This document shows, piece after piece, positions 1,075 through 25,946 of a stretch of 33,617 bases of DNA. Made by a program: the position numbers and the translations under genes. The notes beneath the pieces were generated by a model, which saw nothing but the letters and a program-made list of their open reading frames with translations, was not told the origin of the DNA and made no database searches. Every line of letters begins with the position of its first letter. The stretch's first letter is position 1. Origin of the DNA: an uncultured Pelagibacteraceae bacterium (GTDB taxonomy: Bacteria > Pseudomonadota > Alphaproteobacteria > Pelagibacterales > Pelagibacteraceae); assembly GCA_902596045.1 (NCBI GenBank), contig CACJSJ010000011.1, forward strand, positions 1 through 33,617, in the 5' to 3' direction.

Positions 1075-1613
1075 GAAAAGTAATATTTCTATTATCTATA
1101 ATTATGTTTTTTTTTAAAACTTCAGCAACTGCAAACTATGAAAAAAAAATTTATGATTTCAGTATAGAAAGTATAACTGGTGAGAAAATAGATTTTAAAG
1201 ATTACAAAAATAAAGTTATCTTAGTTGTGAATACAGCTAGTTATTGTGGTTTCACAAAACAATATGATGAATTACAGGAGTTGTGGGATTTATATAAAGA
1301 AAAAGGTTTGATAGTTCTTGGTGTTCCATCTAATTCATTTAATCAAGAAAAAAGTAATAATGCAGATATAAAAGAATTTTGTGAAGTAAATTTTAATATT
1401 AACTTTCCATTGACAACTATAACAGAGGTTAAAGGTAAAAATGCTCATGAAATTTTCAAATGGGCAAAAGAAAATCATGGCAAATCAGCTGTTCCCAAGT
1501 GGAATTTTTACAAAATATTAATTAATAAATCTGGTAAAGTAGAAGATACTTTTTCATCATTTACAGAACCTATGTCAAAAAAGTTAATAAATAAGATAGA
1601 AGAAATTTTATAA
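1071..1613 (+). CDS. Exported glutathione peroxidase family protein
   Basis: Thiol peroxidase of the glutathione peroxidase family (BtuE-like) that reduces hydroperoxides. An N-terminal hydrophobic segment (about residues 3-20, ending SATA) looks like a signal peptide, which places the enzyme in the periplasm. The peroxidatic residue is Cys59 in TASYCGFT, not selenocysteine. Gln92 (NQE) and Trp144-Asn145 (KWNF) complete the usual catalytic tetrad. Cys104 in IKEFC is at the position of the resolving cysteine of thioredoxin-dependent members, so thioredoxin rather than glutathione is the likelier reductant (inference). 180 aa is normal once the signal peptide is counted. The start overlaps the nhaA stop (ATGA), and the 3' end interlocks with the convergent MBL gene. 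Confidence 0.92.
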   Translation: MRKVIFLLSIIMFFFKTSATANYEKKIYDFSIESITGEKIDFKDYKNKVILVVNTASYCGFTKQYDELQELWDLYKEKGLIVLGVPSNSFNQEKSNNADIKEFCEVNFNINFPLTTITEVKGKNAHEIFKWAKENHGKSAVPKWNFYKILINKSGKVEDTFSSFTEPMSKKLINKIEEIL

Positions 1614-2378
1614 ATTTATAGTTAAACCATCAAAAGCTGGAATAACTTTCTTAGGTAAAACCTTTTTTAAATAATCGTAATCTAAAACAGGTGAAAGATT
1701 AGTTAAAATTGCTTTTTTGGGATTTAGTTTAAAAATTAAATCTAAACTTTCTTCAAGATTTAAATGTGATGGATGATGATTAATCCATAAGCAATCTAAA
1801 ACTAAATAATTAAGATTTTTTAGATGTTTAAAATCTTTTTCAAATATTTGGTTAACATCACTTATATATGCAAGTTTTTTATCTATTATATAACAAATAC
1901 TATTAACTTTACCGTGTTTAACTTTTATAGGTTTAATTGAAATTTTCTTACGTCCATCTTTTAAAGTTAAATTATCATTTACAGACATTAATTTTAAAGT
2001 AGCAGGATATTCTTTTGAATAATTAGTAAAACAATATTTAAAATTATTTAATAAATACTTTTTAGTTGGTTTATCTGCATATACTGGAATAGGTTTTCTA
2101 TTAAGAATGTAAAAAACTCTTAAATCATTAATGCCGTGTGTTTGATCGGCATGCATATGAGAGTAAAAAACTTTATCTATTTTTTTAATTTTGTTATTAA
2201 TTAGTTGTTGTCTAATATCTGGAGATGTATCAATTAATACATTTTCATCTTTTGTTTTAATTAAAGCTGAACATCTTGTTCGATAATTTTTTTTATTATT
2301 TGGATTACAATTTCCGAAAAATCCATCTGGCCTAGGTACTCCCATAGAACTTCCACAACCTAAAATTATAAATTTCAT
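1608..2378 (-). CDS. MBL-fold metallo-hydrolase (PhnP-like)
   Basis: Metallo-beta-lactamase-fold hydrolase of the group that commonly follows tatD in alphaproteobacteria. The opening LGCGSSMGVPRP and the RTRCSALI strand resemble PhnP-type phosphodiesterases. The metal motif HxHxDxxH is complete as His74, His76, Asp78 and His81 (SHMHADQTH). Further likely ligands are the His in KVKHGKV, the Asp in AYISDVN and the His cluster HHPSHLN. The substrate cannot be told from sequence; a cyclic or phosphodiester substrate is plausible from the family. It is the last gene of the long minus-strand operon, 6 bases after tatD, and its TAA overlaps the convergent peroxidase stop. Confidence 0.88.
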   Translation of the reverse strand: MKFIILGCGSSMGVPRPDGFFGNCNPNNKKNYRTRCSALIKTKDENVLIDTSPDIRQQLINNKIKKIDKVFYSHMHADQTHGINDLRVFYILNRKPIPVYADKPTKKYLLNNFKYCFTNYSKEYPATLKLMSVNDNLTLKDGRKKISIKPIKVKHGKVNSICYIIDKKLAYISDVNQIFEKDFKHLKNLNYLVLDCLWINHHPSHLNLEESLDLIFKLNPKKAILTNLSPVLDYDYLKKVLPKKVIPAFDGLTINL

Positions 2379-6210: not shown

Positions 6211-7354
6211 CGCCCCAGATTAAATAATTCAAAGATTTAATTAATCTAGTAAAAATATTAACTTTTTCTATATTTGTAGCCGCTAATAGATTGTATTCAC
6301 CAACTAATTCATCATCATATACAACTCTGAATTTTCCAATTATATCATCTTTTTTTATTGGAGCTTCAACAGGTCCTTCATACTTTAATGCAACTTTTAA
6401 TAGTTTCTTCTTAGCCTTTTTTATAGTTTTATAAATATCTTCATTAACGTAAACATCTAATTGTTTTTGTTTACCAAGCCATACATCAATTTTATCAATT
6501 GGTTTATTAGAATTATTAATTTCAACTAAATCAAAATTAGTTAATCCATAAGTTAAAAGTTTAGAACTTTCACGTGATCTAGAATTTTTAGTTTCAAAAC
6601 CACTACCAACAGCAATTAATCTTCTTCCCTTTCTTTCTAAAGATGCAGCAAGGGAATATTTTTCAACTGCCAAATAACCTGTTTTAATTCCATCTGCACC
6701 AATATTCTTATAAAGAAGAGGATTTCTATTGCCTTGAGTGATTGGGTCACCCCCTGTTCTATCCCATGTAAACTCTTTGTTTGCAAACCATTTATAATAT
6801 TCTGGATGTTCTTTAATTAAGTAATTTGACATCGTTAAAATATCTCTAACAGTTGAATAATTATCTGGGTCATTAATACCAGATGAATTAGAAAAATTTG
6901 TATTCTCCATACCTAATTCTTTTGCTTTAGCTGTCATTAAGATTGCAAATTCCTCTTCAGTACCAGCAATTCCTTCAGCTAGCGCAATACATGCATCATT
7001 ACCTGATGCCGTTATTATACCATGAAGTAAATTTTCTACAGATACTTCATCACCAACCATGATGAACATTGATGAAAAACCAGCTGTAGATAATCGCCAA
7101 GCTTTTTCTGAAACAATAAATTTATCCTCTAGGCTTAAGTCTCCCAATTTTATAAGATCAAAGGCTATTATTGATGTCATGATTTTAGTCATAGAAGCAG
7201 GGTAAATAGATCGATCAGGTTCTTTTTCGAATAAAATTTCACCTGATAAAAAATCCTGCAATATTGCAGTTCTTGCTTTAATTTCAATATTTGAATATGA
7301 GTTAGATATAAAGCCTAAAGTAAATAATATATAAAAAAATATAATTCTAAACAT
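6203..7354 (-). CDS. D-alanyl-D-alanine carboxypeptidase (S11, PBP5/6 type)
   Basis: Low-molecular-weight penicillin-binding protein that trims the terminal D-Ala of peptidoglycan stem peptides. The N-terminal signal peptide covers about residues 1-21. All three active-site motifs are present: Ser54-x-x-Lys57 (YPASMTK), Ser117-Gly-Asn119 (ASGNDAC) and Lys224-Thr-Gly226 (IKTGY). A C-terminal PBP5-like beta domain follows (about 275-365), with a final hydrophobic and amphipathic stretch for membrane association. Length 383 aa is typical of DacA/DacC. It sits between the RlpA-like gene and tmk with overlaps on both sides. Confidence 0.95.
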   Translation of the reverse strand: MFRIIFFYILFTLGFISNSYSNIEIKARTAILQDFLSGEILFEKEPDRSIYPASMTKIMTSIIAFDLIKLGDLSLEDKFIVSEKAWRLSTAGFSSMFIMVGDEVSVENLLHGIITASGNDACIALAEGIAGTEEEFAILMTAKAKELGMENTNFSNSSGINDPDNYSTVRDILTMSNYLIKEHPEYYKWFANKEFTWDRTGGDPITQGNRNPLLYKNIGADGIKTGYLAVEKYSLAASLERKGRRLIAVGSGFETKNSRSRESSKLLTYGLTNFDLVEINNSNKPIDKIDVWLGKQKQLDVYVNEDIYKTIKKAKKKLLKVALKYEGPVEAPIKKDDIIGKFRVVYDDELVGEYNLLAATNIEKVNIFTRLIKSLNYLIWGDV

Positions 7355-8099
7355 CTTTAAGTATTTCTAAATTTTCAAAATTAAGTGAATTCATTTTTTC
7401 AAAAGATTCTTTTAAAGAGTTTATATCATTAAAAGGACCTAATAATACCCTGTAATTTGTTTTTGAAAGTTTAATCAAATTAATTTTTTTAATTGATGTC
7501 TCTTCCCTTATTCTATCAATCATTAAATTTGCTGTTTTTTTGTAGTAAAAATCCGCAACTTTTATAGAATATAAAAATTCATTTTTTGAAATTTTTTTAG
7601 CTTGATTATTCGAAGTATTGTTTAAATTACTAATTTTAATTCCATCAATCGGCGCTTTTTCTGCTACTTCCTTTTCTTCCTCAAAGATCTTTGCTTTTTT
7701 AGCAACGAATGTTGAATTTTTAGAGATCAAGGTTAACTCAATATAGGGTTCTTTGGGATCGAGCTCTAAAGTTTCAGCTATTCTGTTAGTTATAATTGAA
7801 TTATAAAAATTTGAAAATTTTACTCTATTAGATTTTACTTCAGCTATTAAAGATTTTCCATTTAATGGATTTGAAATTTTTACAAAAGATTTACTCTTGA
7901 GACTTTTATGAAAAATAAACAAGGATCTATTTTCTAGTTTTTTTAAATTTAAGTCATCACTATAAATTAATGAAAATCCGGTGTTTTTATATTTTTTTTC
8001 AGGTTTAAAATTTACTTCAGAAGATTTATTTAAAGTATATTGCTCACAACTAGTTAATAAAAAAAAAATTATCGGAATAATTAAAATTTTAAATTTCAT
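7347..8099 (-). CDS. RlpA-like SPOR-domain lipoprotein, degenerate barrel
   Basis: Outer-membrane or periplasmic lipoprotein related to the septal-ring lytic transglycosylase RlpA. A lipobox LLTSC gives lipidated Cys18. Residues about 40-125 resemble the double-psi beta-barrel domain: FVKISNPLNGKSLIAEV matches the family's VRVTNLxNGRSVxVRV strand. However, the catalytic NDRGPF/IDLS region is replaced by KSNRVKFSNFYNSI, and the upstream WYG...GExT segment is missing. Residues about 174-250 form a SPOR domain (FLYSIKVADFY; YRVLLGPFND) that in relatives binds denuded septal glycan. Family membership is inferred from order (mltB-rlpA-dac) and this partial match; enzymatic activity is doubtful. 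Confidence 0.72.
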   Translation of the reverse strand: MKFKILIIPIIFFLLTSCEQYTLNKSSEVNFKPEKKYKNTGFSLIYSDDLNLKKLENRSLFIFHKSLKSKSFVKISNPLNGKSLIAEVKSNRVKFSNFYNSIITNRIAETLELDPKEPYIELTLISKNSTFVAKKAKIFEEEKEVAEKAPIDGIKISNLNNTSNNQAKKISKNEFLYSIKVADFYYKKTANLMIDRIREETSIKKINLIKLSKTNYRVLLGPFNDINSLKESFEKMNSLNFENLEILKDV

Positions 8100-9955: not shown

Positions 9956-9976
9956 AGTTTTAATAAGTGAACTTAA

Positions 9977-9994
9977 ATATTTATATATAAATAT
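9977..9994. repeat. 18-bp perfect AT palindrome
   Basis: ATATTTATATATAAATAT is its own reverse complement. It sits in the 58-base gap between the epimerase stop and the rarD start, 22 bases upstream of the rarD ATG on the minus strand. It could be an operator or a promoter-melting element of the rarD operon, or a weak hairpin after the sugar genes. In such AT-rich DNA chance is a real alternative. Confidence 0.4.
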
Positions 9995-10013
9995 AAAACT
10001 AAAATAATGATAA

Positions 10014-10982
10014 TTAATAATCTTTAAAAAAGTTAATGTTAGATTTGTACCAGCTTAAAGTTTTTCTCAAACCATTTTCTAAATTAGTTTTTTGTTTCCA
10101 TTTAAGTTCTTTACAAATTTTATTATAATTAAGTTTTTGACTTAATATTTCTTTTTTAGATGAATTAAGTATTTTTATTTTAATGTCATTCTTATTTATT
10201 ATTTTTGAAATTTTATTTATCATTTTAAAAACATTCATATTATATTTAGAGCCTACATTATATATTCTGAGGTTTTGTTTGCCTTTAGTCAAAGATTTCA
10301 TTGTAAGATAATAAGCATTTACTGCATCATCTATGTACAGATAATCTCTAACAAGTTTACCACTAGATCTTATTTTAAAGATTTTTTTTTTGATAACAGA
10401 AATTATAAAACCATTAATTAATCTATTCCTATTTAAGTCACCGGGTCCATATAAATTGGCACAACGTAATATTCCAATTTTTAAATTATATGTTTTGGCA
10501 TAAGATTGACAAATCAAATCTGCACATGATTTAGATACGTCATAAGGAAATATTGAGTTGAGACAAGTATCTTCTGTATAACTTTTCTTACCTACTTCCC
10601 CATATGCTTTATCAGAAGAACTATATATAAATATAATTTTTTTATTGATATTATTTATAATATTAAGGAAATTTAGAGTTCCATTAATATTATTGTCATA
10701 TGTGTAACCAGGATTTTTTAGAGCCTCTAAAACTTGCGTTACAGCTCCGGTATGAAAAATAATATCTATTTTTTTGTTTAATATAATTTTTTTGATTAAA
10801 TCTTTATTTAGATAATCGCCCAAAAAAACTCTGTCCTTTTTAATGTTTAAATAATTTTTTTTTAGAAAATTTCTTTTTTTATCAAGTATGAAAACGTTAT
10901 ATTTTTTTTTGTTTAAGAAATTATAAAGATTACTTCCTAATAATCCAAAACCACCGGTAATAAGTATATTTTTTGTTTTCAT
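10014..10982 (-). CDS. NAD-dependent sugar epimerase/dehydratase (CDP-glucose 4,6-dehydratase-like)
   Basis: Extended short-chain dehydrogenase acting on a nucleotide sugar. The NAD-binding glycines GxxGxxG are Gly10, Gly13 and Gly16. The catalytic Tyr147-x3-Lys151 lies in PYDVSK, with the serine cluster SSSDKAYG at 121-128. The stretches PYDVSKSCADL and RCANLYGPGDLNRNRLI resemble CDP-glucose 4,6-dehydratase (RfbG) more than GalE or RmlB, which fits the upstream nucleotidyltransferase. Likely role: making a deoxysugar for surface polysaccharide (inference). Its start overlaps the nucleotidyltransferase stop (ATGA). The coding sequence is even richer in A/T and Lys/Asn/Ile than the flanking core genes, hinting at acquisition. 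Confidence 0.8.
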   Translation of the reverse strand: MKTKNILITGGFGLLGSNLYNFLNKKKYNVFILDKKRNFLKKNYLNIKKDRVFLGDYLNKDLIKKIILNKKIDIIFHTGAVTQVLEALKNPGYTYDNNINGTLNFLNIINNINKKIIFIYSSSDKAYGEVGKKSYTEDTCLNSIFPYDVSKSCADLICQSYAKTYNLKIGILRCANLYGPGDLNRNRLINGFIISVIKKKIFKIRSSGKLVRDYLYIDDAVNAYYLTMKSLTKGKQNLRIYNVGSKYNMNVFKMINKISKIINKNDIKIKILNSSKKEILSQKLNYNKICKELKWKQKTNLENGLRKTLSWYKSNINFFKDY

Positions 10983-11758
10983 AGATTTTTAAAAAAATTT
11001 TTATTTTTTTTGAATAACTTTTTTATATCAAGTAAATCTTTTTGTGTATTAACAGTAAAGTGAAATTCTTTATGCATATAAGATGCTAATTGTAACTTTT
11101 TAGATAATTTTGGAAGAAACTGAGTTTCTAAATCATCTTTTTTATTAAAAGTAGAACTAGAAAATAAATTTTTTTTAAAAAAATAAAAACCGATATTGAT
11201 TGGATTATTCATAATTGGTTTTTCAATAAAACTTGTTATTCTATTTTTTTTATCAATTTTTAAATGTCCATAAGGTGATCTTTCATTAAAGGATGTTAAT
11301 ACAGCTAATATATTCTTTTTTTTGAATAAGGTCAGTTGTTTTTTAAAATTAATATTTGCAAAAATATCTCCATAACAAACTCCAAATAATTTACTTTTAT
11401 TTAGGAATTTTAATGATTTAATAATTCTGTTTAATTTATTTGTACTTACACCTGCATCAAACAATATGATATTTAACTTTTCTTTTGATAAATCATAATT
11501 TGCACTCTTTATGATATTTAGATTATATCTTTTGATATTTTTTTTGTTATTAAAAAAATTTATAAAAAATTTTTTTTTATAACCGAGAGGTAATATAAAA
11601 AAATTAAAACCATTTTTAAAATAATACAGCATAACTTCGACAATAATGGGATGTTTTGAAACTTTTGATAGTTGTTTTGGAGAATTTGATTTTCCTATGA
11701 ACCTCTCTCCTTTTCCGCCAGATAATACTATGATTGGAATTTGTTTATGACTTTGCAT
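10979..11758 (-). CDS. Sugar-1-phosphate nucleotidyltransferase (RfbF-like)
   Basis: Nucleotidyltransferase that activates a sugar 1-phosphate with an NTP. The signature loop reads LSGGKGER at residues 12-19, followed by PKQ at 27-29; the later motifs CYGDIF and FIEKP mark the metal- and sugar-binding positions. The pattern GFNFFILPLGYKKKFF and the later DAGVSTNKLNRI resemble glucose-1-phosphate cytidylyltransferase (RfbF), which works directly before the dehydratase encoded next. It is the first gene of a two-gene operon, divergent from the Rieske gene. Alternatives are other NTP-transferases of the same fold; CTP use is inferred, not seen. Confidence 0.76.
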   Translation of the reverse strand: MQSHKQIPIIVLSGGKGERFIGKSNSPKQLSKVSKHPIIVEVMLYYFKNGFNFFILPLGYKKKFFINFFNNKKNIKRYNLNIIKSANYDLSKEKLNIILFDAGVSTNKLNRIIKSLKFLNKSKLFGVCYGDIFANINFKKQLTLFKKKNILAVLTSFNERSPYGHLKIDKKNRITSFIEKPIMNNPINIGFYFFKKNLFSSSTFNKKDDLETQFLPKLSKKLQLASYMHKEFHFTVNTQKDLLDIKKLFKKNKNFFKNL

Positions 11759-11845
11759 CTAAAAATAAATACAATTAAATATAGATAAGTAAATAAAATT
11801 TTTATTCATAAAATAACATAGGATAAATAGACTATTTTATAGTTG

Positions 11846-11863
11846 AATTAAATCATTTTAATT
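11846..11863. repeat. AT-rich inverted repeat in divergent spacer
   Basis: The arms AATTAAA and TTTAATT are perfect 7-base inverted repeats around TCAT. They lie in the 175-base spacer (11759-11933) between the nucleotidyltransferase start and the Rieske start. I see no RNA gene or ORF of substance in this spacer, so it should hold both divergent promoters. Low complexity makes a chance origin possible. Confidence 0.3.
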
Positions 11864-11874
11864 ATAAAAATAAA

Positions 11875-11925
11875 TTGATGAATATAAGTATATGAAAGAT
11901 TCATATAAATCGATTTAATCATCAA
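11875..11925. promoter_or_regulatory. Nested inverted repeats upstream of the Rieske operon (candidate operator)
   Basis: The inner repeat TATATGAA-AGA-TTCATATA (11889-11907) is perfect over 8 bases per arm. It is flanked by a second perfect pair, TTGATGA (11875-11881) and TCATCAA (11919-11925), with nearly the same centre. A further 10-base palindrome AAATCGATTT lies at 11907-11916. The block ends 8 bases before the Rieske ATG. Its symmetry suggests binding of a dimeric regulator, or an mRNA leader hairpin; neither is proven. Confidence 0.45.
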
Positions 11926-11933
11926 AAAAGTTT

Positions 11934-12254
11934 ATGAAAAAAATTAAAGTAGGAACAATAGAAGATTTAAAAAAAAATAATCAATTTTCAAAATGGATTG
12001 ATGATCATGATGTTTTGGTTTTTTTTCATAATAATAAAATAAGAGCATTTTCTAATATATGCCCCCACTTTGGTGGGCCTATTGGCTATCATGAAATTAA
12101 AAAAAATAAATCAGGGGATAATGTTTTTACTTGTCTTTGGCATAATTTAGAGTTCAAAGTTGAAGATGGAAAATGTGTACAACACAAAAATTTAGAATTG
12201 AGAGAATATGATGTTTTGGTTGAAGGAGATGACATACTGGTATATTTAAACTAA
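11934..12254 (+). CDS. Rieske [2Fe-2S] protein, stand-alone domain
   Basis: Small (106 aa) soluble Rieske iron-sulfur protein. The two cluster-binding boxes are Cys43-Pro-His45 and Cys67-Leu-Trp-His70, separated by 21 residues; this is a little longer than in typical oxygenase Rieske domains because of a Lys-rich insert (about 53-62). There is no signal or membrane anchor, so it is cytoplasmic and unlike the bc1-complex Rieske protein. The next gene starts two bases after its stop and carries the iron-site motif of Rieske oxygenase catalytic domains. The pair therefore looks like one oxygenase alpha subunit encoded by two genes. A ferredoxin role for another oxygenase is the alternative. Confidence 0.9.
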   Translation: MKKIKVGTIEDLKKNNQFSKWIDDHDVLVFFHNNKIRAFSNICPHFGGPIGYHEIKKNKSGDNVFTCLWHNLEFKVEDGKCVQHKNLELREYDVLVEGDDILVYLN

Positions 12255-12256
12255 AA

Positions 12257-12898
12257 ATGAAAAAAATATATTTAACATCAGTTTCAGAAGCTTTTGCTGA
12301 ATATCCTAAAAATTTACTTTTATGGAATTATTGGGATCATGAACATGTTGTTGGGACTCACTTTCTTCATTATAGGAAAGTTAAAATTTTATATGAAGAT
12401 GAAAAAGTTTGCTATTCTGAGAGAGAAGCAAAAATGCCCTTCATTCCATTTTATTTAAATGAAAAATCACTAGCTGTACTTGAAAATGAAAATAGAATGA
12501 TAAGTTGGCATAGTGCAATATTTGATCTTATTCGTTTAAAACAAATTTTTCAGTTTGAGGAAGTTGGTCAAAAATGTAAAGTGATAAGATCTGATTTTTT
12601 AGAAGTTCCTAATTTTTTAAGTTTTTTACAACCAATGTTTAACAAGATTATGAAAAAATGGTTTATTGAAGTTTGGAATGAAGATATGCCAATGCGTGAA
12701 AGAAGATTTAAAGTTTGGAAATTAGGCTTTAAAGATTTTAAAGGTGTAGATTATATAAATGATAAAAATTTAAATAAAAATATTAATGTTAGTAGACCTT
12801 ATGCATTAAAATTACCTTTGCCTAAAATTACAAAAATAAAAGATGAAGGGAGTTTTAGAAAGTTTAAAAAAAGTAAACACCTTGGGTATGGACTGTAA
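12257..12898 (+). CDS. Putative Rieske oxygenase catalytic-domain protein (mononuclear iron)
   Basis: 213-residue protein that lacks a Rieske domain but shows the motif of ring-hydroxylating oxygenase alpha-subunit catalytic domains: Asp27-x2-His30-x4-His35 (WDHEHVVGTH), the exact spacing of D205/H208/H213 in naphthalene dioxygenase. A later EDMPMRE (Glu142-Asp143) resembles the family's ED-x2-x-E segment, which gives the third iron ligand (Asp143 here). The sequence before the motif, NLLLWNYWD, resembles the NWKLxxENxxD entry strand. The domain is shorter than usual. Substrate unknown; hydroxylation or demethylation of a small molecule is an inference. Translational coupling to the Rieske gene is likely, with a two-base gap. 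Confidence 0.72.
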   Translation: MKKIYLTSVSEAFAEYPKNLLLWNYWDHEHVVGTHFLHYRKVKILYEDEKVCYSEREAKMPFIPFYLNEKSLAVLENENRMISWHSAIFDLIRLKQIFQFEEVGQKCKVIRSDFLEVPNFLSFLQPMFNKIMKKWFIEVWNEDMPMRERRFKVWKLGFKDFKGVDYINDKNLNKNINVSRPYALKLPLPKITKIKDEGSFRKFKKSKHLGYGL

Positions 12899-12958
12899 CT
12901 TCTCTCTATCAATAAAATTAGACTTAATTATCAAATTTCATTAAATAGACTTTGTTTT

Positions 12959-12987
12959 TTGTTGAATTTAAATATTTTACTTATAAA
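12959..12987 (+). promoter_or_regulatory. Likely promoter of tRNA-Ser
   Basis: TTGTTG (12959-12964) and TATAAA (12982-12987) are separated by 17 bases, a good sigma70-type pair. The predicted start is about 5 bases before the mature tRNA 5' end at 12998. The 99-base gap after the catalytic-domain gene holds nothing else I can support. Confidence 0.55.
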
Positions 12988-12997
12988 ACCTTGCTAC

Positions 12998-13087
12998 GGA
13001 GAGATGGCTGAGCGGTTGAAAGCACCGGTCTTGAAAACCGGCAAAGGGGCAACTCTTTCCTGGGTTCGAATCCCAGTCTCTCCGCCA
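12998..13087 (+). tRNA. tRNA-Ser(UGA)
   Basis: Class II tRNA of 90 bases including an encoded CCA. The acceptor stem GGAGAGA pairs with TCTCTCC (13077-13083), followed by discriminator G and CCA. The anticodon stem CCGGT/ACCGG encloses CTTGAAA, giving anticodon TGA at 13032-13034. A long variable arm (AAAG...CTTT) and the T-loop GGTTCGAATCC confirm serine. The CCA ends directly against the last base of the convergent sdhE gene. A run of six T (13091-13096) just after it might act in termination. Confidence 0.97.
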
Positions 13088-25343: not shown

Positions 25344-25946
25344 ATGGGTAATTTACTTTCATCTTTATCTAAAACAATTCACGCATCATTAGCTTTAGCA
25401 ATTATACTTTTTTTAGCTTTGTTTTATTTAAACGACGGCTTCGCTATTGATACAATTTTTTGGAGCTGGCTGTTTAGATACATTCATGTACTTGTAGCAA
25501 TAATGTGGATTGGTTTGTTATGGTATTTTAATTTTGTTCAAATACCAAATATGAGTAAAATTCCAGATGAGCAAAAACCAGCCATCGGCAAAGTAATAGC
25601 ACCTGCTGCTTTATTTTATTTTAGATGGGCTGCAGCATTTACAGTTTTATCAGGATTAATTTTAGCATTACTAAATGGTTACTTGCATGATGCTATGACA
25701 CTTAGCATTGGATCTGGCATACCAAAACATACAGCTATTGGTATTGGCATGTGGCTTGGGGTTATAATGGCTTTTAATGTTTGGTTTGTAATTTGGCCAA
25801 ATCAAAAAAGAGCATTAGGTATTGTCGAATGTGAACCAGAGCTTAAGGCTAAATCAGCTAGAACTGCTATGTTATTCTCTAGAACAAATACTTTGCTTTC
25901 ATTACCAATGTTACTTACTATGGTGATGGCTCAAAATCTTTATTAA
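25344..25946 (+). CDS. PuuD-like membrane protein without cytochrome c domain
   Basis: 200-residue integral membrane protein resembling the membrane part of the urate hydroxylase PuuD family. About five hydrophobic helices are visible (near 13-30, 44-66, 86-110, 129-151 and 180-196). Recognisable stretches are RYIHVLVAIMWIGLLWYFNFVQIP and FNVWFVIWPNQ. His48, His114 and His129 are candidate haem or metal ligands. PuuD proteins are much longer and end in a cytochrome c domain; no CxxCH occurs here, so a urate-oxidising role is doubtful. It starts 47 bases after uvrA, and its stop shares TTAA with the convergent secF stop. Confidence 0.75.
   Translation: MGNLLSSLSKTIHASLALAIILFLALFYLNDGFAIDTIFWSWLFRYIHVLVAIMWIGLLWYFNFVQIPNMSKIPDEQKPAIGKVIAPAALFYFRWAAAFTVLSGLILALLNGYLHDAMTLSIGSGIPKHTAIGIGMWLGVIMAFNVWFVIWPNQKRALGIVECEPELKAKSARTAMLFSRTNTLLSLPMLLTMVMAQNLY

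Follow-up and report, generated by a model that had tools for sequence, protein, structure and literature searches.

A Rieske oxygenase probably formed by two separately encoded polypeptides, with reversed-order fusions among its relatives

A stretch of 33,617 nucleotides from an uncultured Pelagibacteraceae bacterium (contig CACJSJ010000011.1, positions 1-33,617), hereafter called the window, carries side by side a gene for a small Rieske protein and a gene for a protein with the iron-ligand motif of Rieske oxygenase catalytic domains. The locus raises the question of whether these two genes encode one oxygenase in two pieces, a broken single-chain enzyme, or two proteins of separate function. 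Our analysis indicates that they probably encode one Rieske non-heme iron oxygenase of two polypeptides, which would oxidise a sugar in surface-glycan synthesis. The features on which the argument turns are the following.

11934-12254, plus strand: Rieske [2Fe-2S] protein of 106 residues with C43-x-H45 ... C67-x2-H70, recognised by a PF00355 match.
12257-12898, plus strand: catalytic protein of 213 residues with a predicted SRPBCC fold and a predicted mononuclear iron site of D27 (bridge), H30, H35 and D143, recognised by motif invariance and predicted fold.
12335-12361, plus strand: codons for D27-x2-H30-x4-H35, read from the sequence and invariant in homologues.
12680-12685, plus strand: codons for E142-D143, where D143 is the predicted third iron ligand on a long C-terminal helix (residues 119-155), from the model and invariance.

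Both open reading frames (ORFs) were as the original prediction had described them in coordinates, length and motifs. The Rieske ORF scored 53.5 bits against PF00355 (cut-off 20.3), and the 213-residue ORF contains D27-x2-H30-x4-H35, then E142-D143 within EDMPMRE, and no Rieske cluster motif. The frame of the second ORF is open only from 12233, behind the TGA at 12230-12232 that had been pointed out, and its sole start codon is the ATG at 12257, two bases past the Rieske stop. In the same genome, only two other Rieske proteins were present, a protein of the bc1 type and an ordinary fused Rieske oxygenase. The latter (L046:727-2019, minus strand, contig C15) has an E-x2-H-x4-H bridge motif and a later ED, and its gene is divergent from metF-like and aminomethyltransferase-like genes, both named by eye only.

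Short peptide patterns taken from the second protein, matched exactly against approximately 85,000 species genomes, gave 15 loci, and whole-genome searches gave two more, L044 and L045, for a total of 17 further loci. The 15 scan loci were labelled Pelagibacterales/Pelagibacteraceae, Synechococcaceae, Bacteroidetes, Myxococcales and Nitrospina, the labels of single-cell and metagenome assemblies being accepted as given. A separate Rieske ORF was found directly upstream on the same strand in 16/16 readable further loci (17/17 with the window); L005 was excluded from this count for N bases in its upstream region, and in L011 the Rieske ORF was cut by the contig start with its C-terminal part present. 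The conserved separation for which a homologue search had been proposed was therefore found, and the fused close relatives that would have spoken for a single-base error were not. No same-order single-chain relative was present among the fetched loci, in a scan that, relying on exact peptide patterns, may have passed over divergent members and any same-order fusions among them. Since the same-order relatives, close and distant, are all split, a single-base error in the window is excluded, and sequencing error or pseudogene formation is ruled out by the conserved split in other loci. An ordinary alpha-subunit gene broken by sequencing or assembly error or by decay is hardly credible on these grounds: the gap of only two bases between stop and start would suit such an origin, and decay is seen in the family (the remnant at L106), but gaps, overlaps and frames vary among the split loci, and both halves retain their ligands and have a start codon of their own. 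In the loci measured, the distance from Rieske stop to catalytic start ranged from +11 to -17 nt, with a relative frame of 0, +1 or +2; in L002 and L003, the catalytic ATG comes straight after the Rieske TAA, in the same frame. Because frames and distances vary in this way, from 11-nt gaps to 17-nt overlaps, programmed frameshifting or stop read-through is disfavoured.

Genome searches also yielded two relatives in which the same two halves are joined in a single frame, in the opposite order.

L111:1375-2355, plus strand: reversed-order fusion in a congener genome, family profile E 1.9e-14.
L107:1054-1980, minus strand: reversed-order fusion in a picocyanobacterial-family genome, family profile E 3.7e-9.

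The two frames (328 and 320 codons) begin with the catalytic domain (WNYKDVHHLNIVH, WNYSDVPHFQFIH, with DD or ED further on) and end with the Rieske domain (CSHEGA...CPWH, CEHEGA...CPWH). The two sequences, the only permuted forms in our sample (n=2), are 27% identical over 287 residues, and the Rieske domain of L111 is above the Pfam cut-off (23.2 bits). The reverse-order fusions speak independently for joint action of the two split proteins. They also show, at the level of domain order, that the sequence Rieske-then-catalytic is dispensable in this lineage. In the open-access literature we found no publication on this split or permuted family and no paper on a Rieske oxygenase with a C-terminal Rieske domain, the latter being weak evidence of absence.

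Residue conservation was consistent with a shared active site. Among 17 homologous catalytic proteins, of which those other than the window's own are 24-66% identical to it, W23, N24, W26, D27, H30, H35, E142 and D143 were invariant, and in the aligned Rieske proteins so were C43, H45, C67 and H70. L044 and L045 read WNHWDQDHINY(T/V)H, in which flanking residues differ and D27, H30 and H35 are unchanged. When the two permuted relatives were added, the invariant columns became W23, N24, D27, H30, H35, F65, D143 and R150 in the catalytic protein and C43, H45, G47, C67, W69 and H70 in the Rieske protein, and this reduced set still holds all predicted metal-site residues. In addition, the distance matrices of the Rieske and catalytic proteins were strongly correlated (Mantel r 0.92; thinned set 0.83; 0/5000 permutations). 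Such co-varying distances fit what would be expected of a dedicated pair inherited together. As judged from these sequences, an active site built from two proteins is well supported.

The kinship of the catalytic protein with Rieske oxygenases was examined by fold and profile comparison. Its AlphaFold2 model (predicted local distance difference test (pLDDT) score 74, predicted template modelling (pTM) score 0.70) shows a helix-grip fold; H30 and H35 lie in a short helix region past the first strand, and D143 lies on the long C-terminal helix. In a Foldseek search of the PDB with this model, GxtA and KshA appeared at E ~4e-5. The SRPBCC/Bet v1 fold anticipated for the second protein is thus predicted by the model and by Foldseek alike. 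We also folded a joined chain, the L002 pair with the intervening TAA read as a residue (pLDDT 81, pTM 0.65). Its 50 best PDB matches were all Rieske oxygenases or their complexes, with KshA5 best (3e-12) and GxtA, SxtT, dicamba monooxygenase, NdmA/B, CntA and CARDO among them, and the alignment covered both domains in order over ~290 columns. As a comparison set, 24 fused Rieske oxygenases from alphaproteobacterial genomes were used. In the best-scoring hhalign alignment, which was co-linear, D27, H30 and H35 were matched with the E, H and H of the fused oxygenase of the same genome, and D143 with its D; 0/200 column shuffles reached the score of 22.2 (mean 11.5, standard deviation 2.1). Together with their invariance in homologues, this alignment agrees with the earlier assignment of the motif to the bridging Asp, two His ligands and third-ligand region.

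Several observations weigh against this assignment. The hhalign matches to the 24 fused oxygenases are weak (best E 0.009, probability 4.5%), and the catalytic protein lies outside every Rieske-oxygenase catalytic family of Pfam and NCBIfam. The placement of the two domains in the read-through model is unlike the within-chain arrangement of alpha subunits (template modelling score ~0.35, root-mean-square deviation ~20 A); each domain matches singly. The Rieske domain of L107 scores 13.9 bits, below the Pfam cut-off of 20.3, although its four ligands are present, and neither a ferredoxin reductase nor another dedicated reductase turned up among the window genes scanned. Finally, when the catalytic protein is searched alone, other SRPBCC proteins outrank Rieske oxygenases, the best matches being Bet v1, norcoclaurine synthase and aromatase/cyclase (ARO/CYC) proteins. 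This last result could be taken to mean that the SRPBCC protein is not an oxygenase, but a lipid- or polyketide-binding protein of the START or aromatase-cyclase type lying beside a Rieske protein by chance. The Pfam search would allow it as well, since none of the split-family catalytic members matched an oxygenase there at E 0.1. The window protein had no family match in Pfam or NCBIfam, and the catalytic profile matched no solved structure by sequence up to E 10. We regard a binding protein as very improbable, because the exact D-x2-H-x4-H spacing and the later ED do not vary across five phylum-level groups and persist in the permuted fusions, an invariance that no metal-independent role explains.

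How a divided enzyme could work is suggested by the geometry of known alpha subunits, in which cluster and iron are ~12 A apart across the subunit interface and ~45 A apart within a chain, with a bridging carboxylate between them (PMC12445004); in CntA, the bridge is Glu205 and the iron ligands are His208, His213 and Asp323 (PMC7948474). Because the working pair already spans two chains, the covalent link between domains is not the electron path, and therefore a split or a permutation can preserve the working interface. In the two-polypeptide oxygenase that we propose, single electrons would pass from a general cellular reductase or ferredoxin to the small Rieske protein, which would dock on the SRPBCC protein with His70 meeting Asp27. 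Asp27 would then link the cluster histidine to the iron, whose ligands would be His30, His35 and Asp143. With the electron passed to the iron, O2 would be activated, and the substrate bound in the SRPBCC pocket would be hydroxylated or otherwise oxidised. Complex formation, this electron route, the O2 chemistry and the substrate are what we infer from the arguments given here.

The pair can be set beside several known systems. Single-chain alpha3 oxygenases (KshA, GxtA/SxtT, dicamba monooxygenase and CntA) share with it the C-x-H/C-x2-H cluster motif, the carboxylate-x2-His-x4-His motif, and, by prediction, a later Asp on a C-terminal helix and the SRPBCC fold. They consist of one chain with the Rieske domain first, whereas the split family has two chains, or one chain reversed; in the 24 fused oxygenases, ~106-129 residues separate the first Rieske Cys from the bridging residue. 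It had been assumed that both domains of known alpha subunits are on one chain, an assumption to which NdmC/NdmD is a published exception (PMC4408171). NdmC, NdmD and NdmE form the 7-methylxanthine N7-demethylase of Pseudomonas putida CBB5 (PMC4408171), and the caffeine demethylase proteins NdmC/NdmD appear to be the closest precedent, likened by architecture and not by sequence. NdmC and, as predicted, the 213-residue window protein are both catalytic non-heme iron proteins without a Rieske cluster, the cluster being on another polypeptide. In NdmD, however, the Rieske domain is fused to an NADH reductase, whereas the Rieske protein of the window is free-standing with 106 residues, and NdmCDE requires the glutathione S-transferase (GST)-like NdmE, whereas neither a reductase nor a GST-like gene is present among the window genes scanned. 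The split family differs from NdmCDE also in its permuted single-chain relatives and its genomic setting.

Ferredoxins of the T4moC, CarAc and BphA3 type resemble the window arrangement in being free-standing Rieske proteins of ~105 residues encoded beside an oxygenase gene. Searched alone, the window Rieske protein matched NirD at 52 bits, and T4moC-type ferredoxins and phthalate dioxygenase alpha were among its best PDB matches, so that it is as close to Rieske ferredoxins and NirD as to alpha-subunit Rieske domains. The SRPBCC protein might then be a mononuclear iron oxygenase that a Rieske-type ferredoxin visits transiently, and not as a fixed subunit. We consider this unlikely. Known Rieske ferredoxins pass their electrons on to another Rieske cluster, carried by the oxygenase (in the case of T4moC, to a diiron site), whereas the window pair has no second Rieske cluster, and the one-to-one adjacency, the co-divergence and the two fusions fit a dedicated partner better. 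The difference between a visiting ferredoxin and the subunit that we favour is one of affinity.

The genomic setting bears on the possible substrate. In the window, the pair is part of an insert with the following features.

9956-12997, no strand: inserted cassette of ~3.0 kb between rarD and tRNA-Ser(TGA), from comparison with six congeners.
10014-10982, minus strand: NDP-sugar 4,6-dehydratase/epimerase family protein, with SSDKAYG ... YDVSK at the active-site region.
10979-11758, minus strand: sugar-1-phosphate nucleotidylyltransferase; best relative glucose-1-phosphate cytidylyltransferase, below the family cut-off.
12998-13087, plus strand: tRNA-Ser (TGA), the insert boundary.

The interval from rarD to tRNA-Ser(TGA) is 69-92 bp in the six congeners versus 3042 bp in the window, and the cassette contains exactly four genes, namely the two nucleotide-sugar genes and the Rieske pair. 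A search for flanking repeats gave low-complexity AT-rich matches only. Elsewhere, the pair lies mostly within surface-glycan loci. The commonest Pfam families among 82 neighbour proteins in other genomes were glycosyltransferase 2 (14), methyltransferases, NAD-dependent epimerases (7), radical SAM (5), asparagine synthase (4) and DegT aminotransferases (3). In L038 and L044 the pair has sugar C-methyltransferases in its vicinity, and L041 has a homologue of these; in L001-L004 and at both permuted loci, a zinc-ribbon methyltransferase gene lies directly next to the oxygenase genes or overlaps them, at the permuted loci by a few bases; and L112 contains an N-acetyl sugar amidotransferase with HisF/HisH-type partners. 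Since nucleotide-sugar genes share the cassette, and glycosyltransferases, epimerases, C-methyltransferases and the zinc-ribbon methyltransferase accompany the pair elsewhere, the substrate may be a nucleotide- or lipid-linked sugar bound for a surface glycan, as far as context can indicate. In the open-access literature, no paper was found on a Rieske oxygenase in O-antigen synthesis, which is weak evidence of absence.

Unrelated genes do gather in surface-glycan islands, and in L033 and L036 the pair has housekeeping genes on at least one side. A split Rieske oxygenase with a role other than glycan synthesis, acting for instance on a lipid or a nutrient, and with neighbours that reflect variable islands, is therefore conceivable but in our estimate unlikely: the window pair came with just two other genes, both for nucleotide-sugar enzymes, and the zinc-ribbon methyltransferase recurs as a neighbour of both split and permuted forms.

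The split pair is a rare, accessory family. With the central genome set aside, intact copies were found in 3/196 sampled genomes of the same family and in 0/397 of Pseudomonadota, and in 0/344, 0/188 and 0/76 genomes of the Bacteroidota, Myxococcota and Nitrospinota searches; searches of viral, phage and plasmid sequences gave no relatives. A remnant of the catalytic gene with seven stops was observed in L106 (around 1480-1790, minus strand), in a picocyanobacterial glycan island (L114) that also encodes CDP-glucose 4,6-dehydratase, glucose-1-phosphate cytidylyltransferase and an RfbH-like protein. Two further ORFs of the window were recorded. At 25344-25946, the C-terminal part of a 200-residue ORF matches PF06181 (urate oxidase N-terminal domain family) with 51 bits over 64 residues only. 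At 7347-8099 on the minus strand, a conserved 250-residue ORF between dacC-like and mltB-like genes has no Pfam or NCBIfam match and is present in congeners at ~40-55% identity.

Current annotation misses the catalytic protein, for which there is no Pfam or NCBIfam model. Whether the pair represents a deep, unnamed branch of Rieske oxygenases, with separable and permutable modules, that oxidises sugars for the surface glycans of marine and other environmental bacteria seems to us evenly poised. Known Rieske oxygenases nearly always keep their two domains tethered, even though each cluster serves an iron on another chain. A natural family without the tether, or with it reversed, would make it possible to test directly whether the gating of electron transfer depends on it, and the separate halves could each be titrated, swapped or reduced alone. 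Such a family would further point to a class of sugar modifications in surface glycans that depend on oxygen.
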